A program made the translations under genes and the position numbers. This document shows, piece after piece, positions 13,483-29,874 of a stretch of DNA of 64,000 nt. The notes under the pieces are model-generated. The model worked only from the letters and a program-made list of their open reading frames with translations. It did no database searches and was not told the origin of the DNA. Each line of letters opens with the position of its first letter. The stretch's first letter is position 1. This stretch comes from Polyangiaceae bacterium (GTDB lineage Bacteria; Myxococcota_A; Polyangia; Polyangiales; Polyangiaceae), in the NCBI GenBank assembly GCA_019637295.1, contig JAHBVX010000002.1:806001-870000 (forward strand), read 5' to 3'.

Positions 13483-14058
13483 TCAGCCCTGACGCGTGCG
13501 TGGCCGTCCAATGCCGTGTCGCTCGAGCCGCGCGATGAACGTACGACGCGGCAAGCCCAGCAGCGACGCCGCTCGGCTCTGGTTGCCGTGGCAGGCCTCG
13601 AGCGCCTCTTCGATGCGCACGCGCTCCATGGCGTCGAGCTCCTCGCGCAAGCGGCTGTGGGACAGCTTGCCGAAGCGACGGAGCCGCGCGCCGGGCTCGA
13701 GGGTGCGAGGGATGAACACGACATCGCCGAGCTCGACGAGCATCCCCGAGCGGATGATGGCTGCTTGGTGCGGCGGCAGGCGAGCGCCCTCCACGCGGGT
13801 CCCGTTGGCGCTCCCCGCGTCCGCGATCCGGAGCTCGGGGCTCGTGACGAGCGTCGCGTGGGAGCGAGACACGGAGGGGTGCTCGAGCACGATGTCACAG
13901 CTGGCTGCGCGCCCGATGGTGAGCTCGAGTCCCTCGGGCAAGCGCACCTCGACGAAGCCCCCTGGCCAGTAGAACTGCGCGACGGGGAGGCTAGTGTTTC
14001 CCAGACGCTGCTTCGTCGTCGGCTGCGCGTCCCGCGCCCCCCGCGCCCCCCGCGTCAT
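13483..14058 (-). CDS. FHA domain plus Fis-type DNA-binding regulator
   Basis: A 191-residue protein. The ATG at 14058 is chosen over an in-frame GTG at 14076 because GAGGGGG lies 7 bases upstream as a good Shine-Dalgarno sequence. Residues about 20-105 are a forkhead-associated domain, with LTIGRAASCDIVLEHPSVSR and DAGSANGT, which binds phosphothreonine peptides. Residues about 140-185 are a Fis-family helix-turn-helix, with EALEACHGNQSRAASLLGL. The architecture is that of a myxobacterial FHA enhancer-binding protein with the central sigma-54 AAA+ module missing. It could bind DNA in response to Ser/Thr kinase signalling but should not activate sigma-54 by itself. It is convergent with the aminotransferase gene (9-base gap). 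Confidence 0.88.
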   Translation of the reverse strand: MTRGARGARDAQPTTKQRLGNTSLPVAQFYWPGGFVEVRLPEGLELTIGRAASCDIVLEHPSVSRSHATLVTSPELRIADAGSANGTRVEGARLPPHQAAIIRSGMLVELGDVVFIPRTLEPGARLRRFGKLSHSRLREELDAMERVRIEEALEACHGNQSRAASLLGLPRRTFIARLERHGIGRPRTRQG

Positions 14059-14292: not shown

Positions 14293-14727
14293 CTACGGGG
14301 AAGCCAGCAGCCGGACTGCGAGCTTGACGAAATCCGCCTCGGTCACGATGCCGACGAGCGTCTGGTCCGCGTCCACGACCGGGAGGCACCCGAGCTTGTT
14401 GTCCACCAGCAGCTTGCCCGCCTCCACCAGCGGCGTCTCGGCAGTGACGGTCAAGACGTTGCGCTGCATGACGTTGCGGACGAACACGGAGGTGCCGAGG
14501 GCGTGGGTCTTCTGGGCGGCGCCTGGCTCGAGGATACTGGCCTGCAGCCGCAGCAGATCCCGGTGGGTGAGCAGCCCGACGAGGCGCCCCTCGTCCACCA
14601 CCGGCAGATGCCGAAAACGATAACGCGCCATGCCCTCCTCGATGCGATCGAGGTTGTCCTCCTCGAACAGAGTGATCACCTCGCGGGTCATGATCTCGCC
14701 GACGACCTTGGGTATCTCGCTAGACAT
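14293..14727 (-). CDS. Two-CBS-domain protein
   Basis: A 144-residue soluble protein made of one tandem pair of CBS motifs (a Bateman module). The first spans about residues 8-62 (VGEIMTREVITLFEEDNL, FRHLPVVDEGRLVGLLTHRD). The second spans about 82-140 (VRNVMQRNVLTVTAETPL, LGCLPVVDADQTLVGIVTEA). Such modules bind adenine nucleotides and act as energy or ligand sensors. The ATG at 14727 is 13 bases after the stop of the helicase-like membrane protein gene, and all genes from 29357 run the same way, so this is probably the last gene of the tubulin-like operon and may supply a nucleotide-sensing input. The ribosome site is weak, consistent with coupled translation. Confidence 0.88.
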   Translation of the reverse strand: MSSEIPKVVGEIMTREVITLFEEDNLDRIEEGMARYRFRHLPVVDEGRLVGLLTHRDLLRLQASILEPGAAQKTHALGTSVFVRNVMQRNVLTVTAETPLVEAGKLLVDNKLGCLPVVDADQTLVGIVTEADFVKLAVRLLASP

Positions 14728-14740
14728 CGTCGGATCTCTA

Positions 14741-17700
14741 TCAGGGCCCGAGCACCGCGTCGAGCAACCCTCGGGCCGCTCGCCGGCTCGGCGGAGCCCC
14801 CTCGGGGCTCTGGCACAGTACGCCGAGGATGCAGGCCGAGCAGCCGTCCCGCTCGTCGCAGTCCGGCTCGTGCTGCGCTTCGTCCAGCAGCGTGCGGCAC
14901 CACTCGAGCACCGCTTGGGCCACATCGCCGGTCACCGCGCGTGCGTAGCCGGCCTCGCCGGCGTGCCGGTCGATGAACACCAGGCTCGGCTCCGGGGCCT
15001 CGAGCCAGTGCACGTCCAGATCGTCTTCGCCGTGCCGCACGCAGGCAGGCAGGATGGCGCGGGCCAGATGCGCGAGGGCGTGACCGGCCGCCGAGGCCGC
15101 GCCGTCCAAAGCCAAGACGGCCGCGCGAGTCTCGAACTCCGCGACTAGCGGCTGCTCGTAGCTCAGTTCGTCCACCGGGCCGCGCAGAGGGTGGGCGCTG
15201 CGCACGCCGAGCACGCGCTCGACCACGCGCGCGACGGGGTGATGCAGCCGCACGCGCGAGGTCCCACCCCAGCGTAGCTCGCTGCCGGCGCCATCGTAGG
15301 ACAGCTCCAGCTCCCGGATCCGCGCGGTGCGCGTCCGTCGCCGCTCGGGGATCGCGTACACCACGCCCTGGGTCAGCTCGGGTTGTTCGTCCGGCAGCAG
15401 CACCCGGTAGCGGCGGCCGTGCACCATGAGCACACGTCCCGGGTAGGCCACCGCACACAAGCAAGCGCGATCCGTCTCGAGCACGACGGAGCCGTCGCTG
15501 CGGTCGAGCACCCGACCGACGGTCCCGCTGGCGGTCAGCTCGAAACGCGAGACGCTCGAGTCGTTCACGCTGACCTCGACGTCCGAGCGCAGCGCGCCGT
15601 CCGCTTCGATCAGCTCGATGGGACGCGACAAGAGCGGGCCCGCGCCCCGCGCCCGCTCGATGGCCAAGGCCGGATAGTCGCGTGCGGCGTCGTTCAGACG
15701 CAGCGGCGCCTCGGTCGCAGCGGCGAGCAGGTGCCGGGTCGCCATCGCGGTCGCGTCGCGCGCCGCCACCAGCTTCGAGCCCATGGCGAAGCGAGGATGG
15801 CGCCGAGTCGACGACAGCCACAGGGGATTCTGGGCCAAGAGTCGAGCGAAGGGCTCGTCGTCGGGGATCCAGATCGAGACGGCGCGATCCGCGCGCAGCT
15901 CGACCTCCAGACCCTGCGGCGGGCTCTCCTCCGCGCTGTCCTTCGGTAGCTTCTCTTCGCCCTCCTCGGCGGGGGCGGGCGCCTTCTCTTTCGCCTCGCG
16001 CTCGACCACGAAGCCAGCGAAGCGCTCCTCGGGCTTCTTGTCTCGGTCCTTGCGCGCCCCAACCTCGCGCGCGCGCAGCACCTCTCCTCCAATGGCTCGC
16101 TGACCGACGTGCCGCGTGAAGAAGTGCAAGAGCGCGGCCTTTTCGGCGGAGAGTCGCACGACGAGCGCGTCCGCGGAGTCGAGCAGCACCTGGGTGTCCT
16201 GACCGCTCTGAATCACCGCGTGGCCGAAGCCGAGCAACACCTGGTTGACCTGCTGCCCTTGCTCGAAGCCGGTCAGGACCGAGTCGTAGTCCCAAGCCTC
16301 CGCCTGATAGCCGCAGGCGATGGCGACGCCGCGCGCCCCGACCGCGGGGTGCAGCTCGCGTGCATGGCTGGGCGACCCGACGACGATCTGGCGCGGTGGT
16401 GCGCCTCGGCTGTCCGACTCGGGTCCCACGACGTGGAAGGGCGTGCCCATGAGCGCCTCGGCGTGACCGAGGACGTCGGGTCCAAAGGGGGCCACCGAGG
16501 CCAGCACCCGGGGGCTGCCGCCGAGCGAGCGCGTCAGTCGCCTGAGCCGTCGCATCACGAACGCCACGCTGGCCGCGTGCGCGCCGGTGTAGCGATCCAG
16601 ATCGATGGCCACGATCAGGCTGAGGCGCGACAGAAACGCCGACCACTCGCGATGACGCGCGCACACGTCGTGGTGCAGGTCGCCCGCGGTGGCGAACAGG
16701 ATTTGCGGCGGTCGGACCTCCGGCGCGATCCCCCGCCGCCCGAGGCTGCCGAGATCGTGATGGTGGATCGCCCAGCGCCAGTTGCAGCGGGTGGAGAGCT
16801 CGGCGAACGCGCGCGCGCGACGCGCGGATTCGGCGCGGTCCGGCGACAGGTACAGCACCGTACCGCCCTCTACCAGCACCGTGCGCAGGGCGAACAGATC
16901 GCCCAGGGTCCGCCGGCCGGACAAGGGGGGCGTCTCGATCAGGACGCTCTTGCCGTCGAGCAGCGCCTCGCTGGTCGCCTCTTGGTGAACGAACAGTCCG
17001 TCGATGCCGAGCGCCGTGAGCGCGTCGCGCACGAGCGAGCTCTCCTCGCCCAGGCGCGTGCGGCCGGCGATGTGCTCGAGGCCACCCTGCTCGAAGCCGC
17101 CGTTGGAGACGGTGAGCTCGGGCCCCCGGTCGTCGATGGACAGGGCGCGTACGAGCTGCTCCGGGTCCTTCAGCCGCACCCCCGCGCCGTCCGCGGCCTG
17201 CTCCTCGCGCCGCTTCTCTTCCGGGGCGGTGGGCGGATCCACCAGGTTGAGCGCGAGCCCCTCGACCACGAGGGCGAGCAGGGCCCACAGCGGCGGCGAG
17301 AGCGCGCCGGTGATGGCGGCCGAGAGCGAGAGCCACTGCGCGACGCGCAGCCAGCGAACGACGGGCCGGCACCACTCGGCGAAGCGCACCTCCTGCACAC
17401 TGGGCTGGTGAAAGCCCGCCAGCTTGTAGAAGCGCTCCACCCAGCTCGAGCCGAGCTCGGACTCGACCTCGCGGGCCACGCTCTCGCCGCTCGGATCCCC
17501 GACCAGCCATGCCACGAGCAGGGCACAGGTCGAGAACACGGCGTACAAGGCGGCGTAGGTCAGACCGAGCACGAAGGGGAAGCGCAGGTGCCCGAGCTCC
17601 TCCACCGGCGCGCTGGCGATACCGGTCAGCCACTCGATCACGGCCTGCTCGAAGCTACGGCCGCTGAGCCAGAGGTAGAGCAAGAGCGCTGCGAACACCG

Positions 17701-17878
17701 TCGCTACCAGCGCCGCCGAGAAGAGCAGGATAGGCCCGCCGGCCCGGCGCTGGTTCTGGCGTAGCGCCCTCAGCACGCCACGGCCTGCCAGCGTGGTCAG
17801 CGCCAAGACCAGGGCCGTCTGCAGGAAGATGCCGAGCAGGGGCGACCACTGGTAGAGGCGAACCAGGAGATCGATCAC
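14741..17878 (-). CDS. Membrane protein with a decayed Hrq1/MrfA-type helicase core and C-terminal Cys cluster
   Basis: A 1045-residue protein. The GTG start at 17878 overlaps the preceding stop (GTGA), so translation is coupled. Four hydrophobic segments lie at about 12-35, 48-72, 103-130 and 183-212, followed by a large soluble part. From about residue 300 it can be laid over Hrq1/MrfA (DUF1998-family) superfamily-2 helicases. However, the Walker A position reads ETPPLSGRRT (about 314-323) with no GKS/T, and the DEVH box position reads AIDLDRYTG (about 423-431). The flanking features (ILFATAGDLHHD, VAFVMRRLRRL, RVLASVAPFG) are retained. The C-terminus (about 975-1045) keeps the MrfB-like zinc domain: FIDRHAGEAGYA, then CDERDGCSACILGVLC (CX5CX2CX5C). 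I infer a membrane-anchored scaffold without ATPase activity. The central 600-700 region is Lys/Glu-rich. Confidence 0.75.
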   Translation of the reverse strand: MIDLLVRLYQWSPLLGIFLQTALVLALTTLAGRGVLRALRQNQRRAGGPILLFSAALVATVFAALLLYLWLSGRSFEQAVIEWLTGIASAPVEELGHLRFPFVLGLTYAALYAVFSTCALLVAWLVGDPSGESVAREVESELGSSWVERFYKLAGFHQPSVQEVRFAEWCRPVVRWLRVAQWLSLSAAITGALSPPLWALLALVVEGLALNLVDPPTAPEEKRREEQAADGAGVRLKDPEQLVRALSIDDRGPELTVSNGGFEQGGLEHIAGRTRLGEESSLVRDALTALGIDGLFVHQEATSEALLDGKSVLIETPPLSGRRTLGDLFALRTVLVEGGTVLYLSPDRAESARRARAFAELSTRCNWRWAIHHHDLGSLGRRGIAPEVRPPQILFATAGDLHHDVCARHREWSAFLSRLSLIVAIDLDRYTGAHAASVAFVMRRLRRLTRSLGGSPRVLASVAPFGPDVLGHAEALMGTPFHVVGPESDSRGAPPRQIVVGSPSHARELHPAVGARGVAIACGYQAEAWDYDSVLTGFEQGQQVNQVLLGFGHAVIQSGQDTQVLLDSADALVVRLSAEKAALLHFFTRHVGQRAIGGEVLRAREVGARKDRDKKPEERFAGFVVEREAKEKAPAPAEEGEEKLPKDSAEESPPQGLEVELRADRAVSIWIPDDEPFARLLAQNPLWLSSTRRHPRFAMGSKLVAARDATAMATRHLLAAATEAPLRLNDAARDYPALAIERARGAGPLLSRPIELIEADGALRSDVEVSVNDSSVSRFELTASGTVGRVLDRSDGSVVLETDRACLCAVAYPGRVLMVHGRRYRVLLPDEQPELTQGVVYAIPERRRTRTARIRELELSYDGAGSELRWGGTSRVRLHHPVARVVERVLGVRSAHPLRGPVDELSYEQPLVAEFETRAAVLALDGAASAAGHALAHLARAILPACVRHGEDDLDVHWLEAPEPSLVFIDRHAGEAGYARAVTGDVAQAVLEWCRTLLDEAQHEPDCDERDGCSACILGVLCQSPEGAPPSRRAARGLLDAVLGP

Positions 17879-20178
17879 GTGTCGCGCTCCAGGATGGCGA
17901 TCGCCGAGCGGGGCAGCGCCGTGCGCAGGGCCAGGACGAACACGCGGCTGTCGTCTTGCGTGGGCAAGAGCTCAGGCAGCCGAGGGCTCGACTTGCTCAA
18001 CTCCTCGAGGACGTCGGCGATCCAGGTAGGACCGAACAGATAGGTGCGCTCGGCGCTCTGGGCGTCGAAATCTCGCACCTCGAGCGGCACGGTGAGTCGG
18101 TCGTACATCTCCGCGATGAAGCTCTGCACCGGCGCGGCGAGGTGCTTGCGCAGGACGTGGGCCTCGATCGCGACCTCTTGCTCCATCGCGCGCGTGAGCT
18201 CGCCGGGCAAGAGGAAGCGGGGCGCCTCGTCGCTCGCCTGCTCGGGCGTGCGACTCAGGCTCTCGATGATGCGCTCGGCGACGTCCGGTGACGGGCGCAC
18301 GTCGGCGTACACGCCGCGCAGCGCCTCCTTCGGCGAGCGCCGCCGGTACAACAAGTCGCCGCCGCTCTGTTCGTTCGAGCCCTCCAGCCGCCGGAGCTCA
18401 CCCTCCAGCGAGCGCTCGAGCAGGCTCAGCGCGTTCTCGAGCGCGGTCAGGCGCCCGTGCTCGCGCTCGAACAGGGAATCCAAGGACGCGAGGGTGCGCA
18501 GCGCCCAAGAGCGCAGCGAGAGGGCCAGCCGCGACTCGTAGAAGCCGATGACGCTGGAGCCGACGCGGTCCGTCAAGAATCGAGTCACCGCGGCACCGAG
18601 GGTCTCGCGGGCCCCGAGCAACGCCTCATGGCAACGCCGCCGGTAGCGCGACGCCAGCGCCAGGGCGAGCGGCAAGAGCACCGCCAGCATGAGCAAGAAG
18701 GACAGCGGCGGCTCCAGGAGCCGCTGCCACCCCGCCTCCGGTGCGAGATCCCGAATCGAAGGAGTGAGCGACAGGACGGGCACGCGCCGGCTGGCGACCG
18801 CCACGAGCCACTTCGGTAAGTGCATCAGGAAGATCGAGGCGATCACCGCAGCCAGCACGCTGTAGCCCATCAAGCGGTAGGGCCGGGGCCGGACCGTGCT
18901 CTCCTGGCGCAGCGCTCGGAGCGCGTTCTCCACCGCGGTGGGCTTGGGGAACGTAACCAACGCGCGGGTCTTGAGGTCGCCGGCCAGGGCGTCTCGCTCG
19001 CGGCCGACGATGGCCCGGGCTCGCTGACTGAGCCACAGCGCTCGCCAGAAACCGAGGGCGCCGTCGCGCTCGCGGCTGGCCACCTCCCGAGCGCAGTCGC
19101 GGACGAGCTCGCTGGCCATGCGGTTGCCCCGCTCGTCCGCGAGGCGCGCGAGCTCGTCCATCTCGGACTGATCCAGGCGACGGACCAGCGCGGCCACCGT
19201 CTCCTGCAGGGAGTCGAACCATCCCCAACCGAAGCGCACGTCACGGATCAGCTCCGGGGTGTCGTTCCAGCCTATGGGAGGCAGCTCGACGCTCGGCGCT
19301 TGCGCGCGAAGCATCTCGATCAAGTCCGCCTGTCCCTCGTCGCTGCGCACGCGCGCCGTGAGGTCTTGGGCGGAGGGTACCAAGCGCTGAGCCTCGGCGT
19401 CCGCGCGCGACACCACGTCCGGCGGCGGCGTGCGCGCCCACCTCACCACGTCGCGCGCTGCGGCGGTGGCCACGTAGCGCGCGGTGGAGAGCTCGAGGGT
19501 GGCGCAGCCGAAGGACGCGAAGCAGCGCCGCTCCCGGAGCTGCTCGGGGCCGGCGCGCAGGAAGCTCTGCATCGGCTCCTCGTGGCGCAGGGCGGTGGTG
19601 AGCAGCAGCGCCAGAAACGAGACCACGGTGCTGCCGAGCTCGCCCCGGGACAGCTCGTAGCGCGCGCTCTGGGTCTCGAGCACCAGCACTCTCGGCAGCA
19701 GGGCCTGGTCCGACGCGGAAGCGGCCTCCGACGCGAGCGCCTCGAAGTGCCCGAGGGCACGCTCCGCTTCGGCGGTAGCGCCGCTGGCGCGCGCGCCCGA
19801 CAGGACCACCACGGGCGCCAGCGTCAGACGCCGGGCGCCGTGTCGGCCCAGGATGTGGCTATAGCGAGCCAAGAGCCGCCGCCCGAGGGCCTCGACCAGC
19901 GCCGTGGCCCGCGGGGCTATGCCGGCTTCGTCCAGGTCCACGATGACGAACACGTCCAGGGACGGGTCCCGGCCGGCCAGCGCGCGGTCCAGCCCGAACA
20001 GCCCCTCGGCTGCGCCGAGCACGCGCCCCACCAGCCGCTCGGTGTCCGCTTCCTGCTCCGGGTCGGATGCGAGCAGGGCGAGCCGCTCGATCTCGAGCGG
20101 CTCGACCCGTCGCACGACCTCGCCGCCGAACGCGCCGAGTCCGAGCACGATCGTGGGGGCGCTCAGCTCTACCGACAC
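17875..20178 (-). CDS. Two-span membrane protein with a degenerate tubulin-like N-terminus
   Basis: A 767-residue protein. The GTG start at 20178 is 3 bases after the stop of the tubulin-like gene. The N-terminus TIVLGLGAFGGEVVRR mimics the first glycine-rich nucleotide loop of its upstream neighbour (IFVGLGGCGSKIVNEI). There is no GGTGSG second loop; the matching region reads VVLSGARASGATAEAE, so GTP binding is doubtful. Two hydrophobic segments lie at about 434-456 and 488-507, and the C-terminal 250 residues are helical and charged, including runs predicted to coil. It is probably a membrane-bound partner of the tubulin-like protein. I do not recognise a named family. The coupled start and stop positions on both sides place it firmly in the operon. 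Confidence 0.7.
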   Translation of the reverse strand: MSVELSAPTIVLGLGAFGGEVVRRVEPLEIERLALLASDPEQEADTERLVGRVLGAAEGLFGLDRALAGRDPSLDVFVIVDLDEAGIAPRATALVEALGRRLLARYSHILGRHGARRLTLAPVVVLSGARASGATAEAERALGHFEALASEAASASDQALLPRVLVLETQSARYELSRGELGSTVVSFLALLLTTALRHEEPMQSFLRAGPEQLRERRCFASFGCATLELSTARYVATAAARDVVRWARTPPPDVVSRADAEAQRLVPSAQDLTARVRSDEGQADLIEMLRAQAPSVELPPIGWNDTPELIRDVRFGWGWFDSLQETVAALVRRLDQSEMDELARLADERGNRMASELVRDCAREVASRERDGALGFWRALWLSQRARAIVGRERDALAGDLKTRALVTFPKPTAVENALRALRQESTVRPRPYRLMGYSVLAAVIASIFLMHLPKWLVAVASRRVPVLSLTPSIRDLAPEAGWQRLLEPPLSFLLMLAVLLPLALALASRYRRRCHEALLGARETLGAAVTRFLTDRVGSSVIGFYESRLALSLRSWALRTLASLDSLFEREHGRLTALENALSLLERSLEGELRRLEGSNEQSGGDLLYRRRSPKEALRGVYADVRPSPDVAERIIESLSRTPEQASDEAPRFLLPGELTRAMEQEVAIEAHVLRKHLAAPVQSFIAEMYDRLTVPLEVRDFDAQSAERTYLFGPTWIADVLEELSKSSPRLPELLPTQDDSRVFVLALRTALPRSAIAILERDT

Positions 20179-20181
20179 GAG

Positions 20182-23100
20182 TTACATCTTGGCGAGGACG
20201 GAGTCGAGAGCCTGCCGCGCAGCGTGGAGCTCTTGCTCGACGAAGGCGTGCTCCTTGCCTTCCAGCGACAAGCGCAGCTTGCGGAGCACCTCCAGATGCT
20301 CGTTCACGAGCGCGGAGACGCCGTCGCGATCTCGCTCCTCCACGAACTTCGAGTTGCGGCTGTCGATCTCGTGCAGGAGCCACTCCCGGATCGCGAGCTT
20401 GGAGCTGCGGAACTTGTCGAACGCGACGTCCCGGAAGCGGCCGAGCCCGCGATCGCGCTCGGGGATGTCGTCGTTGGTGTACGTGAGCTCTGCGGTGGTC
20501 TCGTTCAGGACAACCAGGCCGTGGCACTGGGCCCAGACGAACTCCACCATCTCTTCGGCGGCCCGCGCGGTGTGCACGCGCTCGCGCTGCTCGAGCCACG
20601 CCTTCTTGCCTTGACCGGCGACCACGGCGCGGGGCGCGACGTCCGCCAGGCACTCGTGCTCGTCCGGCGCTCCCTCCCAGCGCTTGTCGATGTGCAGCGG
20701 GATGTCCGGCACCCGGCGCCCCTCGGAGTGCTCCGCGTGGGTGGCGGCGTGCTTGGGCTGCAGCGGCAAGTCACCCCAACGATAGACCTTGCCTCGGGAC
20801 AGCTCATCCCGCTTCACGAAGTGATAGCGGTCGTAGTGATCGTCCATGGTCTCGAGCCGGTAGATGGGCATGCCCAGCTCGCTCCAGTAGAACGTGACGC
20901 GCTTGGGGTCGTCGCTCGCGAGCACGTCGCCGCCCTTGACCGGGAACCGCTCGTTGCCGAGCAGCGCGTGACGGAGCTTCGGGTCGTCGAGGTAGGGCTG
21001 GTGGACCACCACGTAGCGCTTGGGCTCGATGGTCGTCGCTCGCTCCTCGCGGCGCAGGCGCAGGAAGGGAGCGCACTTGCGCGCCGCGAAGTGGACCTTC
21101 TGCTGGATGTAGTCGTCGATCTGCGCCTGGGTCACGGCCTCGAAGGCGATCTCCCACTCGGCGACGTGGGCGCGGTAGCGGTGCGTCGCGGGATCCGGGT
21201 GGTGCTTGCGCAGGCGCGTCCAGGCCATGGCCAGGCGCGCGTCCTCGACCAGCGCCGAGGACAGCTCGAGCCCCATCTCGTCCACGCTGCGCGGCTCATC
21301 CAGGCCGAGGATCCGGTCGCGCCACACGCTGCGTCCCATGTCGACCAGCGCCTCGCTCACCGCGGCGCTCATGTGCCGGGCGTGCTGCACGTCGCCGTAG
21401 GCCCGCTGAACGGCGGGGAAGATGCGGGCCGCGTCGTAGTCCGACGCGGGGTTCTCACGGCGCTCGAAGACCCAGTGCCACATGCGGAAGTGGGAGGGGT
21501 CCTCGAAGTTCTGATACAGCTCGACGTCCAGCACGTGATCGTTGGACAGGCCGCCCTGATCCCGGCGCACGCCGAAGCGCCGTAGCTCTTCGCATGTCGC
21601 CTCGAGCTTCTGGCGGATGTTGAACAGCTCCGAGAAGAGGGTGGCCAGGCGGTTCTTGCGCTCGTCGATCAGGCGCAGCAGGTCGTCGCACAAGTCCACG
21701 ATGCCCGAGCTGACCAGGCGTGAGAGCTCGGGTGCCTCCATGTTGGCGCGATACCAGCCCATGAACTCGGGCACGGCCTCCTGCCCGTAGTCGTTGCCGC
21801 GGAGGTACTCCACCACGGTCTTCGGCGCCGCGGACGAGAGCGTCTCCACCCAGGACATGTACGACTGGTCGAGGTTGCGCAGCACGCCCGCGGCCTCGTT
21901 CTCCCGCGCCCGCGCGGCGGCTTGCCACTCCTTGAGGCGCGCCGCGAGTCGGATCAGGAACAAACGCTCGAAGATCGGCCCGCGCTCCGCCAGGAGCTGC
22001 CCGAAGCTGTGCGGATGGTCCGCTCCGGACACCTCTCGCGAGATGAAGTCCGCCTCCTGATCGATCTTGGTGCGCGCGTCGGCGGCGGCCTTGCGCCAAG
22101 CCTCCAGCCGCTTGGGCATCTCGATGCGGACTGCCTCGGCGTCCTCGTCCATCTCGAGCAACCGCTCCTCCGTCCAGCGCGGGAGCTGGACGTGCCGCTC
22201 GATGCGTGGGCCGAAGTCCGTCTCGAAGGTGCGCAGGAAGCGATCGAGCACGCCTTGCTGCTCCGCGCTGCCGTCGCACCCATCCACGATGCGTCGGTAG
22301 AAGGCGCCTGCTTCCGAGGGTACGTTGGCTTGCTCGAGCAGGGAGCGGACGAAGTCCTGGTCCCGGCGCTCGCGGTCCGCGTGGGACTCTTGCTCCGACG
22401 GGGGCTGCTCGGGCAGCGCGAAGGTGTGCGTCAGCGCCTCGACGGCGTAGCGGTGCGAGCAGTAGTCGAGGATGTCGTCGTCCGGCACGCCCAGCACGCT
22501 CAGCCCGAAGCTGCCGTAGCGCTTGGTGTACATCTGGTGATCCGTCACGCCCATCTCGCGCTCGTCGTTGTCCGCGGTGGACGCCTGTCGGCCCAAGATG
22601 TCGCTGAAGATCTGCGAGTAGGCGCTGTCGGCGATGGCCTGGAACACCTGTCGGGTGTCGGTGATGACCTCTCGCCCGGACCCGATGTCGTCGATCAGGT
22701 ACACCTGATCGAAGGCGCGACGCTTGACGATCTGTTTCTCCTTCGCGCGTGGGTCGTACTGGAACGCGACCGGCTCGCCGTCGGTGGCCGACTGCATGTG
22801 CTCGAGCTCCATCAGCGCCGCGTAGCCATTGGCCATGATCTTGTCGAGCTGCTGGGCGGGCAGCCCGGCGCGCCGGAACACAGCCGGAAGCACGAAGGTC
22901 GCGACGACGATCGGACGCGCGTGATCGCGCATCAGATCGGCGAAGAGGTAGGAGGTGGGCAAGAACGCGCCGCTGCCCGTGCCGCCGGCGAGGCTGGCAT
23001 AGACATGGATCATCGGCGCCTTGTCGGTGTCGCGAAAGCGACTGTCGATCGAGTAGCTGTCGCCGACCGCGCGCTCCAGGGAGGTGAACACCTCCGGCTT

Positions 23101-23481
23101 GTACTTCAGCGTGAAGTGCATGCTCAGGCGGCTCTCGATGCGGATCTGACCGGCGCCCGCGCCGGCCACGTCCCGCGGCAGGTAGTACTCGGGCCACCAC
23201 TGGGTGAAGAGCACGTCTTCCGGCGCGCCGCGCTGGCCGAAGGCGTGCGTGACGTAGGAGCGCTTGTCGAAGCTCGAGATGGGCACGCGCACGTCCACGC
23301 TCTCGGCCTGCTTCAGCTCGTGCTGGTCGGTGTCGAACGCGAAGAAGTGAACCAAGCTCTTGTAGCGTTCGTACTCGCCACGCCGCCGCTTGAGCTTGCG
23401 TGCGATCTCGTTGACGATCTTGCTGCCACAGCCGCCTAGACCCACGAAGATGTGGGGCGGGATTTTCATGCGCTGAATCAT
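20182..23481 (-). CDS. Large tubulin/FtsZ-superfamily protein (Tubulin_2-like)
   Basis: A 1099-residue protein. The ATG at 23481 is preferred to upstream in-frame starts because AAGGGG lies 6 bases before it. The N-terminal domain begins with IFVGLGGCGSKIVNEIARKL (residues 11-30), a Rossmann-type first loop. The hallmark tubulin phosphate-binding signature SLAGGTGSGAF has GGTGSG at residues 166-171. This matches the bacterial tubulin-like family (Tubulin_2) of about 1000-residue proteins, not cell-division FtsZ (about 400). The remaining 700 residues are a long alpha-helical, charged extension with no membrane span. By family, it should bind GTP and may polymerise. Its neighbours are a VWA membrane protein, a decayed tubulin-like membrane protein and a helicase-like membrane protein, which suggests envelope remodelling. 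Confidence 0.87.
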   Translation of the reverse strand: MIQRMKIPPHIFVGLGGCGSKIVNEIARKLKRRRGEYERYKSLVHFFAFDTDQHELKQAESVDVRVPISSFDKRSYVTHAFGQRGAPEDVLFTQWWPEYYLPRDVAGAGAGQIRIESRLSMHFTLKYKPEVFTSLERAVGDSYSIDSRFRDTDKAPMIHVYASLAGGTGSGAFLPTSYLFADLMRDHARPIVVATFVLPAVFRRAGLPAQQLDKIMANGYAALMELEHMQSATDGEPVAFQYDPRAKEKQIVKRRAFDQVYLIDDIGSGREVITDTRQVFQAIADSAYSQIFSDILGRQASTADNDEREMGVTDHQMYTKRYGSFGLSVLGVPDDDILDYCSHRYAVEALTHTFALPEQPPSEQESHADRERRDQDFVRSLLEQANVPSEAGAFYRRIVDGCDGSAEQQGVLDRFLRTFETDFGPRIERHVQLPRWTEERLLEMDEDAEAVRIEMPKRLEAWRKAAADARTKIDQEADFISREVSGADHPHSFGQLLAERGPIFERLFLIRLAARLKEWQAAARARENEAAGVLRNLDQSYMSWVETLSSAAPKTVVEYLRGNDYGQEAVPEFMGWYRANMEAPELSRLVSSGIVDLCDDLLRLIDERKNRLATLFSELFNIRQKLEATCEELRRFGVRRDQGGLSNDHVLDVELYQNFEDPSHFRMWHWVFERRENPASDYDAARIFPAVQRAYGDVQHARHMSAAVSEALVDMGRSVWRDRILGLDEPRSVDEMGLELSSALVEDARLAMAWTRLRKHHPDPATHRYRAHVAEWEIAFEAVTQAQIDDYIQQKVHFAARKCAPFLRLRREERATTIEPKRYVVVHQPYLDDPKLRHALLGNERFPVKGGDVLASDDPKRVTFYWSELGMPIYRLETMDDHYDRYHFVKRDELSRGKVYRWGDLPLQPKHAATHAEHSEGRRVPDIPLHIDKRWEGAPDEHECLADVAPRAVVAGQGKKAWLEQRERVHTARAAEEMVEFVWAQCHGLVVLNETTAELTYTNDDIPERDRGLGRFRDVAFDKFRSSKLAIREWLLHEIDSRNSKFVEERDRDGVSALVNEHLEVLRKLRLSLEGKEHAFVEQELHAARQALDSVLAKM

Positions 23482-23486
23482 CGAAT

Positions 23487-23503
23487 CCCCTTCGAGTGAG
23501 GGG
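23487..23503 (-). promoter_or_regulatory. Small hairpin covering the ribosome site of the tubulin-like gene
   Basis: On the minus strand CCCCT (23503-23499) can pair with AGGGG (23491-23487) across a 7-base loop, taking up the AAGGGG Shine-Dalgarno sequence of the gene starting at 23481. The stem is only 5 bp but all-GC except the closing pair. The surrounding 110-base gap (23482-23591) is the only sizeable gap in the operon and also has TATGCT as a weak -10 candidate with no clear -35. Confidence 0.35.
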
Positions 23504-23591
23504 CGCGAGCATAGCCCGAGGCGCGCCAGTTTTGGGGCACTGTTCGAGGGTGCTTGGATTTCGGCTGAAGGAGCGCCGAAGGCTGCGGGAT

Positions 23592-25697
23592 TCAGCTGCG
23601 GGTGAGCCACACCTCGAAGCGATCCGCGAGCCGATAGCGCTCGTCCCAGCGGCCCGTGAAGGGCGCCCGCCGCGGGTCCTCGCCTTCGGGCGCGAGCCGG
23701 ACCAGGCCGGCGGAGGGCTCGGGCCGGACCTCGAAGCTCTGCCCCCGGGCCACGAAGCTGACCAGGGGCTTGGACTTCTTGCCTAGCGGGAAACGGAAGC
23801 GCGCGCTGCGGTAAGCGCCGCGCTTGGCGTAGCGCTTGACGAGCGAGTCACTCGGGAACTGCGAACCGATCTCCACGTAGTGGATCCGTGCTTTGGCGGG
23901 GAACTTGGCGGCCAGCGCGCGTCCGACCAGCCAGATCAGCAAGAGCAGCACGCCGAGCCCCAGGCCCAGCGCGACGCGGTGCTCTCTCATCCAGCGCAGC
24001 AGGGTCCAGGACCTGAGCGTGCCGTCGATGGGCGCGCTGAAGCGACTCTCGCCGCTGAGCAAGGGCGCCGTCTCCGGCGCAGGCGTCACGACCAGCTCAC
24101 CGCCGTAGCGCTTCGCATCCCAGCGCAGCGCCTTGGGGTCGGCGAAGCTGATCCTGACCTCGGCCTCACGCGTCCGCTCATCGAACGTCAGTCCGGCGGG
24201 CTCGAAGCGCAGATCGTTGCGCGCGGTGTCGTCGCTGAGGCTGAGCATGAAGCCCAGCGCCACGGGCACTCGCTCCGGGGCCGTCAGCCTCACTCGCGTG
24301 GTGCCGATGGTGCCGGGTTCGGCCATGCTGTCGAAGCGCACCGGATCGATGGTGATCACCGCGGGCAAGCGGTGGACCACTCGAAAGGAGTGCTCGACGG
24401 GCTCGACGTCCAGGAAGCCGTCGTCGTGCTCCGCGGTCACCCGCAGCAGATAGGGCGCGTCGCGGGCCGCGAGGGCCGAGCCGAAGTCGAAGGGCTGCGC
24501 GTCCTTGCCGCGCGCCGGCAGCTCGAGGGTGCGGTCGGCGAGCGTGACGCGAAAGCGGACTTTGCCCAGGTAGCTCGGATCCCGTCGCACGGGGCTGCCG
24601 CTGCGGCCGACCAGGCGCACCGAGCCCTTGACGGCGTGGCCGTCCGGAACCCCGGCGCCGACCCCCTCGAATCGCAGCGCCGTGCCCACGTCGTAGATGG
24701 CCCAGACGCTCAGGGGCCCGCTCCCCGAGCTGCGCGCGAGCTGCATCGGCCCCGCGGGCGGACGGGCTAGCCAGGTGACGGCGTAGCCCCGCGGGCGCTT
24801 GCCGCGCTCGAGGCGCACGTCGGGCCCGCGCGCTTCCGTCGGCGGCTTGCCGAAGGGAAACGACTGTCCGCTGCGAGTCAGCGTGAAGGGGGCCTCGGCC
24901 GCGTCCGTGCGCACGATCACGTGCATGCCCGCGGCGTCCTCCGGGACGTCGAGGGTGACTGCCGGCGCCGCCGCCGGCTTCTGCACCGGAGAGCCGACCA
25001 GCGCCGCGAACACGTCCGTGAACAGCTCGGGTACGCGGTTCGGATCGTCCGCCAGAATGAGCCGACCCCCGGTGCGCTGGGCCACCTGACTCAGCAGCGC
25101 TCGGGAGCGCTCGGCGGCCTGGAACCCGCGCCCGAGCCCGACCACGAACACCTTGGCCTTGCGCGCCGCCAGCGCGCCAGCGGCGTCGAGCACCTTGCCG
25201 CCGAGGCGCTTGCGTTCCGCTTCGGTGATCACGGTCTTGTCGAAGCGGGTCTTGTCGTCGCAAGAGTCGCTGCCCTCGTTCGGCGGCTGGTACTCACCGT
25301 CCGTGAGGAACACCACCAGCCGCCGCTCGCCCTTGGGCGCAGCGGCCGAGAACGCCTGGGCGGCTTGGGCGAAGCCCGCCGCGTAGTCGGTGCACTTGTC
25401 CGTCGGGCCGATGCCGTCGAGGGCCTTCTGCAGCTCCGGTGAGTTGCCGCTGCCGGCGACGACCGTCTTGGCGCCGGTGCCGAAGGTCATGATCGTGACG
25501 TGGTCGCGCTGATCGCTCAGATCCGCGATGAGCCGCGCGGCGAGCGTCGCGAGCTTGTCCGGATCGTACTGCTTCATGGACAGCGACACGTCGAGGACCA
25601 CAGCCACGCGCAGTCGCGTGCCGTCAGACGCCGCCACCGGGGCCGCGGTGACGAGCAGCAGCAAGAGCAACGCGAGCGTGTGCAGACGGCGTGTCAT
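23592..25697 (-). CDS. VWA-domain membrane protein with cytoplasmic tail
   Basis: A 701-residue protein with a cleavable signal peptide (about 1-23, ending VAAS). The extracytoplasmic VWA domain lies at about 30-235: VVLDVSLSMKQYD is the MIDAS D-x-S-x-S motif and VVFLTDGEYQ a later metal ligand. Several beta-sandwich segments follow to about 585. A single membrane span (LGLGVLLLLIWLVGRAL, about 592-612) is followed by a tail of about 90 residues rich in basic and aromatic residues. This topology suits a receptor that senses or grips something outside and passes it to the tubulin-like protein encoded next. The ATG at 25697 has GGGGAG upstream. The subtilase gene ends 18 bases earlier in the same direction. 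Confidence 0.87.
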   Translation of the reverse strand: MTRRLHTLALLLLLLVTAAPVAASDGTRLRVAVVLDVSLSMKQYDPDKLATLAARLIADLSDQRDHVTIMTFGTGAKTVVAGSGNSPELQKALDGIGPTDKCTDYAAGFAQAAQAFSAAAPKGERRLVVFLTDGEYQPPNEGSDSCDDKTRFDKTVITEAERKRLGGKVLDAAGALAARKAKVFVVGLGRGFQAAERSRALLSQVAQRTGGRLILADDPNRVPELFTDVFAALVGSPVQKPAAAPAVTLDVPEDAAGMHVIVRTDAAEAPFTLTRSGQSFPFGKPPTEARGPDVRLERGKRPRGYAVTWLARPPAGPMQLARSSGSGPLSVWAIYDVGTALRFEGVGAGVPDGHAVKGSVRLVGRSGSPVRRDPSYLGKVRFRVTLADRTLELPARGKDAQPFDFGSALAARDAPYLLRVTAEHDDGFLDVEPVEHSFRVVHRLPAVITIDPVRFDSMAEPGTIGTTRVRLTAPERVPVALGFMLSLSDDTARNDLRFEPAGLTFDERTREAEVRISFADPKALRWDAKRYGGELVVTPAPETAPLLSGESRFSAPIDGTLRSWTLLRWMREHRVALGLGLGVLLLLIWLVGRALAAKFPAKARIHYVEIGSQFPSDSLVKRYAKRGAYRSARFRFPLGKKSKPLVSFVARGQSFEVRPEPSAGLVRLAPEGEDPRRAPFTGRWDERYRLADRFEVWLTRS

Positions 25698-25715
25698 GGC
25701 TCCCCTCGCTCGCGC

Positions 25716-28700
25716 TCAGCCGGCCATCCGTCGGCGCAACAGTGCAGCGAGCGCGAGCAGGCCGAGGAACAACGCGCCGGTGGGGCGGTCACGCGAGGTG
25801 GCGCACCCGCCGCAACCGCCGGTGGCGTCGAGCTCACGGCTCTCGTGCAGGAGCTTCACCTCTCCGCCCACGACGTTGTCACTGACGGACAGCTCGCAGG
25901 GCAGGGCAGGGTCGACCTCGGCTCGCAGGATCAGCGCGCTGCCCTTGGGCGGAGCGGTGAGCGTCAAGTCCACGATCGCCCACTCGTCCGGTGCCAGCGC
26001 GCCGAAGTCGCACTGCGCGTTGGTCGTGGAGCAGGTGCCGCGGGTCGGCTTGGCCTCGATCAGGGTGGCCTGGTCCAGGGACAGCTCGAGCACCACCGAG
26101 TCCGCCGGGCGTCCGCCCGTGTTGCGCACGAGCACGGACCAGCCAAATTGAGCGCCGCCCATCACCTCGGCGGGGGGCTCGCCTTCGAGCTTCAGGTTCG
26201 CGCTCTGGCTCACCGCCGTGGCCAGCTCGACGATCTCGTGACGCTCGCCGCGCACGTTGGTGTGGTGCAGCAGCAGCAGCGACGGGATGTCGGACGGGGC
26301 GAGCTCGGGATCGATGTCCGCCAGCACCGGCCCTTCCAGGTAGAGCGGGCGCCCTTCGTAGCCGCCGCGGGCCGTGTTCACCCGAGGCCGCTCGGCGTCC
26401 ATCACGACCCAGTCCGTGCTGTCGCTGGAGAGCGAGATGTTGTTGCTCTGAGTAACGACGCTGTACTGAAAGGTCGCCGCGCCGGGGAGCAGGTTCAGGT
26501 CCTTGGCGAAGGTCGCGAGCACCACGACGTTGTTGTAGAACGGTGCGGTGTCGGCGATGTCCGAGCCGGCCACGTTGAGCACCCGTCGAATGATCGGCTG
26601 GCCGCCGGAGGCCGCGTAGGTGGTGCTCACCAGCACGTCCGCGTACGGGCCGTCCCGGGTTAGCGGCTCGGCTCGGATGAAGAAGTCGGCTTGGGTGTCG
26701 AAGTTGGTGTCGATCACCACGATGACGGGGCTGAGCGCGCCTTGGGCGGGAGTGATCCACTCGCCGGCCACCACCGCCGCGAAGTACACGGTCAGCTCCT
26801 CGAAGGTCTCCGCTGTCGCGACGGTGGTCGCCGTACCGACCGCCAGCAGATCCATGATCGATTGCTCCCCTTGGCCCGAGGTGAAGGCCGGGCTCTCGGC
26901 GCCGAGCTCGAACGCGGTGATCACGGGCGCGGGGTGGGCCGCGGTGCCCTCGATGGGGATGGCCACGGTGGAGTCGGTCTTCTCGCTGCACAGGTCGAGG
27001 GGGGCGGCCTTGCGGCGCGCCGCCGCTCGCACGGACGCGTGGTACGGGACGCGCGCCTTGCCCGTCTCCGCCGCGGTGTCGATGCGCACGTGCCCGCTGG
27101 CCTCCACCAGGTACTGACGCGCGTTCTCGAACTGCAGCGGCGGTGTGGACGAATCCGGCCCGGGCCGGCCGAGCGCCTGCGGATCGACCGACAGGGTGAA
27201 GGTGACGGTGGTGCTTGCTCCGGCGGCCAGCGCGACGCTCGCCGGCTCGAAGGCGAGGGTGACGCCGGGCAGGTCCCGAGTGGTCTCCACGGCGAACGTG
27301 AGCGCCTCGGCGTCGGTGCCGGTGTTCGTGACCTCGAACGTGCGCGAGAGCGTGGACGTCTCATCCACGACCAGCGAGCCAAAGGAGATGGCGACGGTGC
27401 CGGTGCTGTCATCGGCGGCCGCGAGCAGCGTCTGTGACACGGCGCGACCCACGTCCACCCGTCCGGCTCCCGCGATGCTGACGGGGTAGGTGTTTCCTCC
27501 CCCGTCTTGGATGCGCGCGGCGGAGTTCATCAGCGCGCCCTTGACCTGGGCCGGCGCCCAGCTCGGGTTGGCCTGACGGACCAGGGCGGCGGCGCCGGCG
27601 ACCATCGGCGAGGCCATGCTCGTGCCTTGCGAGCGGCGGGGCAGGAAGCCCGAGCCCACGCGGGCCGAGTCGATGGCGAAGCCTGGCGCCGAGATCTCCG
27701 GCTTGAGGCGGCCGTCCACTGCGCTCGGCCCTCGCGAGGAGAAGGACGCGATCATCTCCGCTCCGGCGCCGGAGTAGGGCTTGCTCGCGTCGAGGGTCGC
27801 CGCGAGACCATTGTTCGCCTGCGCCAAGAGCAGCTCCCCGTCGTCCTGCCGGATCATCACGCCCGGGATCGACACGCTGCCGGGATCCCCGCCGCCCATG
27901 GCGAAGGGCATCGCGTCCTCCTCGTTGTCGACGATGATCATCGCGATGGCGCCGGCGGCGATGGCGCCGTTGAACTTCTGGATGAACGGGCAGCTGCCGC
28001 GTCGCGCGATGGCGATCTTGCCGGCGAGTGCGCTCGGGTTGGCCAGCGTACCGCAGCCATTGGCGGGGGAGGTGGCGACCACCGGCCCGCTGACGGGGCC
28101 AGTGTCGGACAGCCGTGTGGTGAACCCGCCCTCGGCGGCGACGTACTCGCCGGCCACGCTCGCCGGCGCCGTGACCTGCAAGCCGATGAGCTGACTGTCG
28201 GTGCTCGCGGCGACGCTCAGCGGCTCGTCGAGGGTGGCGGGGGCGCCCACCGCGAAGAAGCTCTGGCCGTCGTTGCCCGCGGCGACCACGAGCAAGCTGC
28301 CGGCTGCGTGCAGGTTCTTGGCGAGCCCCGCGGCGGCCTGCGAGCCGAGCCCGTAGGACGTGCCGAGCGAGGCGTTGACCACGTCGAGGCGATCGCTCAG
28401 ATCGCCGTCGTCGTTCGGATCGACCGCGCGCTCGAGCGCGGACGCGAGCAACATCGTGCCGCCGGTGCAGCCGAAGATCTTGAGCGCGTACAGCTTGGCT
28501 TCGGGCGCCACCCCGGGCCCGACGCGAAAGGCGGCCGGGTTGAAGCTCTGCTCGTAGGGCCCGGCGAACGGCGCGCCGGCCTGGGTGACGCCTTGCCCGG
28601 CGGCGATGCCCGCGACGTGGGTGCCGTGTCCGCCGGCGATCTGCATGGCCTGCTGCTGGAAGCAGTCGAGCGGATCGGGATCCGGCGAGGGGACCTGGCT

Positions 28701-29357
28701 GCCGGTGCCCGGGTTGTACTGGTTGCCGGCGAAGTCCCAGCCGCCCACGACCTTGGCGGTGGGGAACGAGCCGGGCTCGATCACGCTCGGGTCGTTGGCG
28801 TTGAAGGCCGCCGTGGTTCCCGGTCCGCCGAAGTCCGCGTGGGTGTAGTCGATGCCGGAGTCGATGATGCCGATCACGACGTCTTTGCCAGTGATGGGCG
28901 TGCTCGCGCTCCAGACCGCGGGGGCACCCACCACGGGCACGGCGGAAGCCAGCGCCGGCTCGATCAACGGGACGCGCTCGACGAACTTCACGCCGGGCAG
29001 GCGAGTGGTGTCCTGCTCGCGGTGGGCCGGCACCATGACGTGCAGCAGGTTGCCGAGGCGCCGGATGTCCGCGATGACGTGACCGCCCAACTCGGCGACC
29101 CTCTGCGTCAACTCGACGCGAGAAGCGTCCAGCTCGGCGATGCGGCGCCGGACGTGAGGCGTGGCGGCCGCGCTGTCGGGCCTGACGCCGCGCGGGACCG
29201 ACTCGATCGCGCTCGGCCCCTCGAGCACGAGGTACAGGTCGACGAGGGGCGCCGTCGCCTCGACGGCTGCGCCTGTCGCCGCGACCGGCGGCGCTTCGGC
29301 CGCGCTGCAGCCAACCAAATAACCAGCGAGCGCGAGGAGGACGGCGGATCGGGCCAT
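25716..29357 (-). CDS. Subtilisin-family (S8) protease with PA domain, lipobox and MYXO-CTERM tail
   Basis: A 1213-residue exported serine protease. The signal peptide ends at the lipobox LVGC (Cys17). An inhibitor-I9-like prodomain (about 35-135) precedes the catalytic domain. The triad is Asp in IGIIDSGIDYTH (about 169), His in GGHGTHVAGIAAG (about 245) and Ser in GTSMASPMVAG (about 580). A protease-associated insert (about 395-525) sits between His and Ser, as in large extracellular subtilases. Beta-sandwich repeats fill about 640-1160. The end, GGCGGCATSRDRP followed by a hydrophobic helix and LRRRM, is a MYXO-CTERM sorting tail. It is probably surface-displayed and autoprocessed. It is the first gene of the minus-strand run leading into the VWA and tubulin-like genes. 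Confidence 0.92.
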   Translation of the reverse strand: MARSAVLLALAGYLVGCSAAEAPPVAATGAAVEATAPLVDLYLVLEGPSAIESVPRGVRPDSAAATPHVRRRIAELDASRVELTQRVAELGGHVIADIRRLGNLLHVMVPAHREQDTTRLPGVKFVERVPLIEPALASAVPVVGAPAVWSASTPITGKDVVIGIIDSGIDYTHADFGGPGTTAAFNANDPSVIEPGSFPTAKVVGGWDFAGNQYNPGTGSQVPSPDPDPLDCFQQQAMQIAGGHGTHVAGIAAGQGVTQAGAPFAGPYEQSFNPAAFRVGPGVAPEAKLYALKIFGCTGGTMLLASALERAVDPNDDGDLSDRLDVVNASLGTSYGLGSQAAAGLAKNLHAAGSLLVVAAGNDGQSFFAVGAPATLDEPLSVAASTDSQLIGLQVTAPASVAGEYVAAEGGFTTRLSDTGPVSGPVVATSPANGCGTLANPSALAGKIAIARRGSCPFIQKFNGAIAAGAIAMIIVDNEEDAMPFAMGGGDPGSVSIPGVMIRQDDGELLLAQANNGLAATLDASKPYSGAGAEMIASFSSRGPSAVDGRLKPEISAPGFAIDSARVGSGFLPRRSQGTSMASPMVAGAAALVRQANPSWAPAQVKGALMNSAARIQDGGGNTYPVSIAGAGRVDVGRAVSQTLLAAADDSTGTVAISFGSLVVDETSTLSRTFEVTNTGTDAEALTFAVETTRDLPGVTLAFEPASVALAAGASTTVTFTLSVDPQALGRPGPDSSTPPLQFENARQYLVEASGHVRIDTAAETGKARVPYHASVRAAARRKAAPLDLCSEKTDSTVAIPIEGTAAHPAPVITAFELGAESPAFTSGQGEQSIMDLLAVGTATTVATAETFEELTVYFAAVVAGEWITPAQGALSPVIVVIDTNFDTQADFFIRAEPLTRDGPYADVLVSTTYAASGGQPIIRRVLNVAGSDIADTAPFYNNVVVLATFAKDLNLLPGAATFQYSVVTQSNNISLSSDSTDWVVMDAERPRVNTARGGYEGRPLYLEGPVLADIDPELAPSDIPSLLLLHHTNVRGERHEIVELATAVSQSANLKLEGEPPAEVMGGAQFGWSVLVRNTGGRPADSVVLELSLDQATLIEAKPTRGTCSTTNAQCDFGALAPDEWAIVDLTLTAPPKGSALILRAEVDPALPCELSVSDNVVGGEVKLLHESRELDATGGCGGCATSRDRPTGALFLGLLALAALLRRRMAG

Positions 29358-29509: not shown

Positions 29510-29869
29510 ATGCAGCCCATCAACTTGGCCGCGAAGCTGGCAGAGGTCAGCGAGCCCTACAGCCCCCGCATCGTGGCGGAGCTCAACGGGCAACGGGTCC
29601 TGGTCGTCAAACTGCTCGGCGAGTTCGTCTGGCACCATCACGAGCACGAAGACGAGCTGTTCCTCGTGCTCTCCGGCGAGCTCGAGCTCGAGTTTCGGGA
29701 CCGCAGCGTGACCTTGGGACCCGGTGAGTGCCTCGTGGTGCCGCGAGGGGTGGAGCACCGCCCGGTCGCGAAAGAGGAAGTTCACGTGGTGCTGTTCGAG
29801 CCCGCCTCGACGCTGAACACTGGCAACGTCGTGTGCGAGCGGACCGTGGCGACGCCGCCGAGGGTGTGA
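29510..29869 (+). CDS. Small cupin-domain protein
   Basis: A 119-residue single-domain cupin. Motif 1 is HHHEHEDELFLVLSGELE, containing the His and Glu metal ligands, and motif 2 is PGECLVVPRGVEHRPVAKE with the last His. This small family usually binds a divalent metal; substrates vary and cannot be read from the sequence. The ATG at 29510 follows an upstream CTATCA that could be a -10 element. The kinase gene starts 5 bases after its stop, so the two genes are probably co-transcribed. It is divergent from the subtilase gene (152-base gap). Confidence 0.88.
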   Translation: MQPINLAAKLAEVSEPYSPRIVAELNGQRVLVVKLLGEFVWHHHEHEDELFLVLSGELELEFRDRSVTLGPGECLVVPRGVEHRPVAKEEVHVVLFEPASTLNTGNVVCERTVATPPRV

Positions 29870-29874
29870 CCGTC

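Follow-up and report, generated by a model that had tools for sequence, protein, structure and literature searches.

Tubulin-like proteins of the FtsZl1 family, encoded in operons together with VWA proteins, were described by Makarova and Koonin in 2010, who proposed a role in membrane remodelling from the VWA, OmpA and GTPase genes in their neighbourhood (PMC2875224). Tubulins and vWA proteins are also carried by the GAP1-N2 DO-GTPase conflict systems (Kaur et al. 2020, PMC7159879). In this work we focused on a window, the whole stretch of 64,000 nucleotides analysed here, from a Polyangiaceae bacterium with a genome of 7.65 Mb (contig JAHBVX010000002.1, positions 806,001 to 870,000), and on six genes located at 14293-29357 on its minus strand around a gene of the FtsZl1 family. 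Four of the six, encoding a VWA protein, a Tubulin_2 protein, a membrane-bound tubulin relative (here called pseudo-tubulin) and a helicase-like membrane protein, constitute the conserved unit. A preliminary description of the window had pointed to membrane-remodelling roles proposed for some non-division FtsZ/tubulin families, in part from membrane-protein and VWA neighbours; the FtsZl1 operons with VWA of the 2010 paper are such a case.

The locus has in common with those operons the tubulin family, the VWA partner and membrane-protein neighbours, and Plesiocystis pacifica belongs to both sets. The main text of the 2010 paper names kinases, GTPases and OmpA proteins, the rest being uncharacterised; the word 'helicase' is absent from it, and the families A1-A2 and B1-B9 of its supplement may include some of the genes treated here, with no function assigned. 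The DO-GTPase systems resemble the locus by a tubulin with a coiled coil or helical tail, an extracellular vWA and kinase and PP2C neighbours, and their Firmicutes versions possess two tubulin genes; DUF1998 is not mentioned in that paper. The helicase-like protein shares the entire helicase fold of MrfA/YprA (6znp), but adds to it an N-terminal membrane domain and a tubulin operon, and has lost motifs I and II in the window. A 2025 survey of YprA proteins mentions in its main text neither tubulins, FtsZ partners nor transmembrane YprA relatives (PMC12458937). The fold of the pseudo-tubulin is that of CetZ, TubZ, FtsZ and tubulin, from which it differs by the absence of T4 and by a large coiled-coil insert with a predicted transmembrane hairpin. 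Neither the pseudo-tubulin nor the YprA-derived membrane protein was found in the main texts that could be searched, the 2025 survey included.

Gene order and distribution of the module

The operon starts with a subtilase gene (25716-29357), followed by the genes for the VWA protein (23592-25697), the Tubulin_2/FtsZl1 protein P0003 (1099 amino acids, 20182-23481), the membrane pseudo-tubulin P0004 (767 amino acids, 17875-20178), the YprA/MrfA-type membrane pseudo-helicase P0005 (1045 amino acids, 14741-17878) and a protein with two CBS domains (14293-14727). All are on the minus strand, separated by 18, 110, 3, -4 and 13 bases; open frames and starts confirmed this layout as it had been claimed, and the gene order and overlaps retained in relatives upheld the idea of an operon-like array centred on the tubulin. 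In a scan of the region for sigma-70 promoters and terminators the number of sites did not exceed that in shuffled sequences.

The core order, VWA, Tubulin_2, pseudo-tubulin and helicase-like gene, was followed with iterated profiles on the genes called in the relatives' loci. All six genes recur in G246, which belongs to the same genus as the host, while a genome of another genus of the family (G103) has the four core genes in the same order without the subtilase or CBS gene. Six Polyangium genomes (11-13 Mb) carry the four core genes at roughly 25-35% identity, and frames, order and overlaps are retained at this level in Polyangium and beyond. The six-gene unit initially described thus holds for four genes conserved together and not for the subtilase and CBS genes, which lie alongside the module elsewhere only in G246. 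Both were rejected on this ground as parts of a conserved machine, and with them the proposed CBS 'sensor' component.

A scan of our collection with the tubulin alignment gave, among the best 80 loci, representatives of Myxococcota, Acidobacteriota (Thermoanaerobaculia, Bryobacterales) and Gammaproteobacteria (Lamprocystis, Thiodictyon, Thiosymbion, Methylococcaceae). After removal of redundancy, 53 loci extended at least 3 kb upstream and at least 7 kb downstream and were considered well covered. The pseudo-tubulin gene was present in 43 of these 53 Tubulin_2 loci, the helicase-like gene in 38 and all four core genes in 27, counts that rest on our own gene caller and on the best 80 loci, with VWA scored loosely. 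The tubulin gene does not, then, occur mostly without its partners, the condition that had been set for refuting the operon proposal. In 43 loci the gene that immediately precedes Tubulin_2, in the same orientation, encodes a VWA protein, and the pseudo-tubulin and helicase-like genes overlap by 1-8 bases at 35 of 46 junctions, most commonly by 4.

Profiles were used to tabulate co-occurrence across 284 genomes sampled evenly from the host's phylum, and the association of the core genes across Myxococcota proposed beforehand was borne out. Tubulin_2 scored above the cut-off in 65 genomes, and the pseudo-tubulin was found in 36, of which 35 also had Tubulin_2; 30 genomes had only Tubulin_2, one had only the pseudo-tubulin and 218 had neither gene (Fisher p 1e-25). 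Given this value together with the kept order and overlap, the association is not due to chance. In a quick tubulin tree with a midpoint root, nearly all rows bear the module and cluster together, the rows without it being L026 and five basal ones (L108-L110, L112 and L113). The four-gene module therefore looks ancestral to its tubulin branch, with subsequent losses. There is a hint that it extends to Alphaproteobacteria: on a plasmid of Azospirillum ramasamyi (L238:9001-17916) a tubulin-like gene is followed by overlapping genes for a 710-amino-acid protein with one transmembrane helix and for a 1118-amino-acid protein with three N-terminal transmembrane helices, the latter weakly matching the helicase-like profile (87% probability).

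Several variants of the module were observed. Two or three tandem VWA genes precede the tubulin gene in many loci (for example L025, L126, L136 and L166). Locus L101 (genome G270) encodes an enlarged pseudo-tubulin of 1415 amino acids and a helicase-like protein of at least 2240, and a freshwater group has a shorter, still recognisable pseudo-tubulin of about 660. In gammaproteobacterial and acidobacterial modules a fifth conserved gene, coding for about 770 amino acids, comes right after the pseudo-helicase gene (L192:18697-21000, L166:18736-21078, L179:18830-21118; also L170 and L187); its product has no Pfam match and no relation to any of the four core families. In L179 the next gene is DO-GTPase-like, with relatives in L166 and L186.

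The tubulin-like protein and its membrane partners

P0003 matches Tubulin_2 (PF13809) with an E-value of 3.8e-52 over profile positions 1-355 of 356, and its comparison with the FtsZ of the relatives by hhalign gave a probability of 95.8%. Both GTP-binding loops, T1 and T4, are intact, and their columns are invariant in the tubulin alignment (A3); the T4 motif AGGTGSG occupies residues 165-171 (22969-22989, minus strand) and is kept in 91 of 92 Tubulin_2 relatives. No transmembrane helix is predicted. The whole-profile match, the GTP loops, the VWA gene in the operon and a canonical FtsZ besides are the traits of FtsZl1. Tubulin_2 occurs only once in the host genome, and the canonical ftsZ is a different gene (G000:C19), for which reason we rejected P0003 as the division FtsZ.

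The partner P0004 gave nothing above the Pfam cut-off, and no tubulin family of Pfam was matched by it or its relatives. Comparison of its family profile with that of the Tubulin_2 family, on the other hand, reached 96-97% probability (E-values of 4e-9 in local and 1e-10 in global mode, over 577 columns), against about 0.2% or less in control comparisons of the helicase-like or VWA profiles with the tubulin profile. Canonical FtsZ compared directly with the pseudo-tubulin by hhalign gave no signal, so that the link runs only via Tubulin_2. An AlphaFold2 model built with 38 relatives had a predicted local distance difference test score (pLDDT) of 87.4. With VIA-align, CetZ ranked first (Z 17.7 over 258 residues, root-mean-square deviation 4.4), and the best 50 entries were all tubulin, FtsZ, TubZ or CetZ (Z 14-18); Foldseek alone returned no E-value below 0.001.

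The architecture of P0004 comprises an N-terminal tubulin core, a long coiled-coil insert with a two-helix transmembrane hairpin, and C-terminal strands. The fold match runs from residue 6 to residue 767, which suggests that in the modelled structure the C-terminal strands complete a tubulin fold interrupted by an insert of about 400 residues. The predicted hairpin (18643-18882, minus strand) has Arg-rich outer ends (RPRPYR... and SRYRRR), which by prediction places the two of them in the cytoplasm. T1 is retained in most members of the family, whereas the GGGTGSG motif is absent from the place of the T4 loop (19915-19953, minus strand) and from all 63 family members. P0004 has a tubulin fold by descent, and with T4 found in 0/63 members we do not count it as a GTPase. 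It had first been called a decayed tubulin-like protein; the membrane tubulin relative stands, while the T4 loss is the state of the whole family rather than a decay in the window.

P0005 has only the MrfA Zn-binding domain MZB in Pfam (PF09369, E-value 1.2e-7) and a DEAH-helicase RecA1 match in NCBIfam (TIGR03817, 8e-28). An hmmsearch with its family profile finds Bacillus subtilis YprA/MrfA (6znp) at an E-value of 3.5e-45, and MZB and DEAD domains are detected in 22 and 15 of the 34 family members, respectively. By fold, the model of P0005 (pLDDT 79) is closest to MrfA, with 632 residues (234-1043) aligned at Z 33.4; the family that ranks next has a Z of 24. The MrfA match begins at residue 234, after an N-terminal membrane domain of about residues 1-230 with four predicted transmembrane helices (17189-17878) and lower model confidence. 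The derivation of the two membrane partners from a tubulin and from a helicase is thereby supported.

In the window the Walker A equivalent is TPPLSGRRT, with Arg in place of the catalytic Lys (16907-16933), and the DEAH-box equivalent is IDLDRYTG, with Glu and His lost (16583-16606); the MZB domain retains its Cys residues (14828-15076, all on the minus strand). On any usual reading, a protein with SGRRT and IDLD would be catalytically dead. Among 47 helicase-like relatives, Walker A reads GK[ST] in 13, has Arg for Lys in 20 and is gone in 14, and the DE of the DExH motif is found in one. This sole member, L104 (L104:14000-17647), combines GAGKST with DELH, as MrfA does, and is the best candidate for the ancestral, perhaps ATP-binding, state. 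None of the Walker A keepers that were checked showed motif VI (GRxGR). The mixture of motif states across the relatives indicates that the motor was lost stepwise. The label 'decayed' helicase is correct for the motifs in the window, but the relatives form a series from near-intact motifs I and II to total loss. We rejected a pseudogene, since the frame is open and order and overlaps are kept in relatives.

The VWA protein, fourth member of the unit, matches VWA_2 (Pfam, E-value 8.8e-14). It is predicted to possess a signal peptide, a periplasmic VWA domain, one transmembrane helix and a cytoplasmic tail of about 100 residues. Its metal ion-dependent adhesion site (MIDAS), DVSLS at residues 36-40 (25578-25592, minus strand), is intact, and DxSxS is retained by 32 of 36 adjacent VWA relatives.

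Accessory and neighbouring genes

The subtilase consists of a Peptidase_S8 domain with PA as an insert (Pfam, E-value 1e-49; NCBIfam) and has a lipobox-like N-terminal signal as well as a MYXO-CTERM tail that scores weakly (16.6 bits against a cut-off of 20); an orthologue occupies the equivalent place only in G246. The CBS domains of the last gene product match Pfam with an E-value of 5.6e-32.

Two neighbours had been omitted from the preliminary description. Beyond the CBS gene, on the same strand and after a further 234 bases downstream, lies the gene for a protein with FHA and Fis-type helix-turn-helix domains (13483-14058, minus strand), which may share regulation with the operon, and a Ser/Thr kinase gene lies upstream on the opposite strand (29833-31092, plus strand). 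The latter and a cupin gene together occupy 29510-31092 (plus strand) upstream of the first operon gene, and a PP2C gene is found at 35667-36533. At the edge of the window (3-4345, plus strand) are exonuclease-V-like genes, the second of which matches RecD-like models; RecD-like and kinase models were also what PADLOC reported on the flanks.

In 138 genes adjoining module loci, the leading signalling classes are Ser/Thr kinases (11), FHA (11) and PP2C (5) genes, with TPR genes also among the leaders. Fifteen module-type genomes contain 778 FHA genes in about 132 Mb, or 5.9 per Mb; at this density, the adjoining genes, which span 144 kb, should include about 0.85. For kinases the background is a lower bound, at least about 90 being scored per genome. 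When near and far genes were compared inside the loci, FHA was nominally enriched.

Proposed function and alternatives

From gene order, folds, motif states, predicted topology and co-occurrence, we infer that the four core gene products may form one inner-membrane complex, in which GTP-dependent tubulin assembly on a pseudo-enzyme platform would be coupled to the VWA protein; we regard this as a serious possibility that falls somewhat short of probable. The Tubulin_2 protein would bind GTP and form a switchable oligomer or filament at the cytoplasmic face. The pseudo-tubulin, an inactive paralogue presumably fixed in the membrane by the hairpin inside its own fold, would offer a stationary subunit of tubulin fold, serving as seed, cap or anchor for the GTP-bound partner, and the helicase-like protein, its motor lost, could be a rigid cytoplasmic platform bound to it. 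Spanning the membrane, the VWA protein would link the tubulin assembly on the inner side to a metal-dependent ligand or to the state of the envelope on the outer side. Ser/Thr phosphorylation, suggested by the kinase, FHA and PP2C neighbours, probably tunes the complex.

Several points weigh against this complex. FtsZl1 proteins are without a recognisable T6-H7 region according to the main text of the 2010 paper (PMC2875224), so classic filaments are not assured, and the structure models cover P0004 and P0005, P0003 being assigned by profile. No VWA gene was found within four genes upstream in 14 loci of the well-covered set (n = 53) that keep the pseudo-tubulin. Kinase and PP2C genes were not enriched in the near/far comparison inside the loci, a comparison underpowered for kinases.

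The main rival is a membrane-associated anti-phage or conflict system, in which the VWA protein or the helicase-like platform would sense an intruder and the GTP-dependent tubulin would act as switch or effector, in the manner suggested for the DO-GTPase/tubulin/vWA systems of multicellular bacteria. We consider it unlikely, but YprA ancestry and a set of Thermaceae cassettes give it weight. In the main text of the 2025 survey, YprA helicases figure as central components of DISARM, Dpd, Druantia and ARMADA (PMC12458937). Three Thermaceae plasmids (L239, L241 and L243, from Thermus, Meiothermus and Allomeiothermus) carry co-directional genes for a vWA protein, a Tubulin_2-like protein, a protein of about 680 amino acids and BrxL, surrounded by defence genes (HmaB, HmaC, a DrmD/HmaA-like helicase, a methylase and RecQ; HmaB/HmaC adjoin the Meiothermus cassette), and this is possibly an undescribed tubulin-containing defence cassette. 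Its tubulins, however, belong to a different branch (about 25% identity). No transmembrane segment is predicted in the third protein, which matches the pseudo-tubulin only weakly (21%), and BrxL takes the place of the helicase-like partner, none of which was detectable. The patchy distribution of the module and the DO-GTPase-related gene adjoining it in a Chromatiaceae locus, with relatives in two acidobacterial loci, would also fit defence, but DO-GTPase2 was found in 0/15 module-bearing Myxococcota genomes (the Corynebacterium control was positive). The operon itself is without nuclease or toxin. For core genes of DISARM, Druantia, BREX and Hma, PADLOC gave in the operon only a weak BrxHI match of P0005 (E-value 2.4e-4), a still weaker DruE match and subtilase models, and the only models that it matched frequently around modules are those for kinases, which any Ser/Thr kinase would satisfy. 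The module neighbours are led by kinase, FHA, TPR and PP2C genes. Searches of plasmids found no pseudo-tubulin and Tubulin_2 below 30% identity in 7 records, and no relative of the tubulin was found in viral contigs.

A machine for remodelling the cell envelope, shaping vesicles or membranes as proposed in 2010 and having no sensing role, would agree with the predicted embedding of the partners in the membrane and with Makarova and Koonin's interpretation of the VWA, OmpA and GTPase neighbours (main text of PMC2875224). It is improbable in our judgement, no lipid- or membrane-bending domain being recognised and the neighbours being led by signalling rather than lipid genes. Quite improbable, too, is nucleic-acid handling at the membrane, where the MrfA-type fold would bind single-stranded DNA and the tubulin would position or move DNA in the way that TubZ handles plasmids: the MrfA fold is preserved in full, Walker A persists in 13 of 47 relatives and L104 has both motifs, but the other 34 of the 47 have a lost or altered Walker A and motif VI was not found in the keepers checked. 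That the genes are decaying or mere neighbours without joint action, as the loss of catalytic motifs in two of the four proteins could suggest, is extremely improbable: frames, order and overlaps persist in Polyangium and in further relatives at identities of 25-35%, and the co-occurrence p is 1e-25.

Returning to a tubulin-based complex in the inner membrane, the recurrence of the four-gene team across bacterial groups makes it seem that a protein of DNA repair and virus defence was recruited into a tubulin-based membrane machine. We tentatively propose, as possible rather than probable, that a YprA/MrfA helicase was turned stepwise, by lineage-dependent motif decay, into an integral-membrane pseudo-enzyme platform which, with the pseudo-tubulin, makes up a tubulin-based transmembrane machine, used for sensing or for defence, of which no equivalent has been described. 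The membrane machinery predicted for FtsZl1 in 2010 would thereby be resolved into four definite components, among them the pseudo-tubulin, which family searches fail to detect. The role of non-division FtsZ-like proteins becomes testable in a system consisting of an active tubulin, a membrane pseudo-tubulin as its possible template, a membrane pseudo-helicase and an outside-facing VWA protein. YprA helicases, which serve in DNA repair and phage defence, would here be seen to give up their motor and become part of a membrane protein, L104 and L163 being living intermediates.

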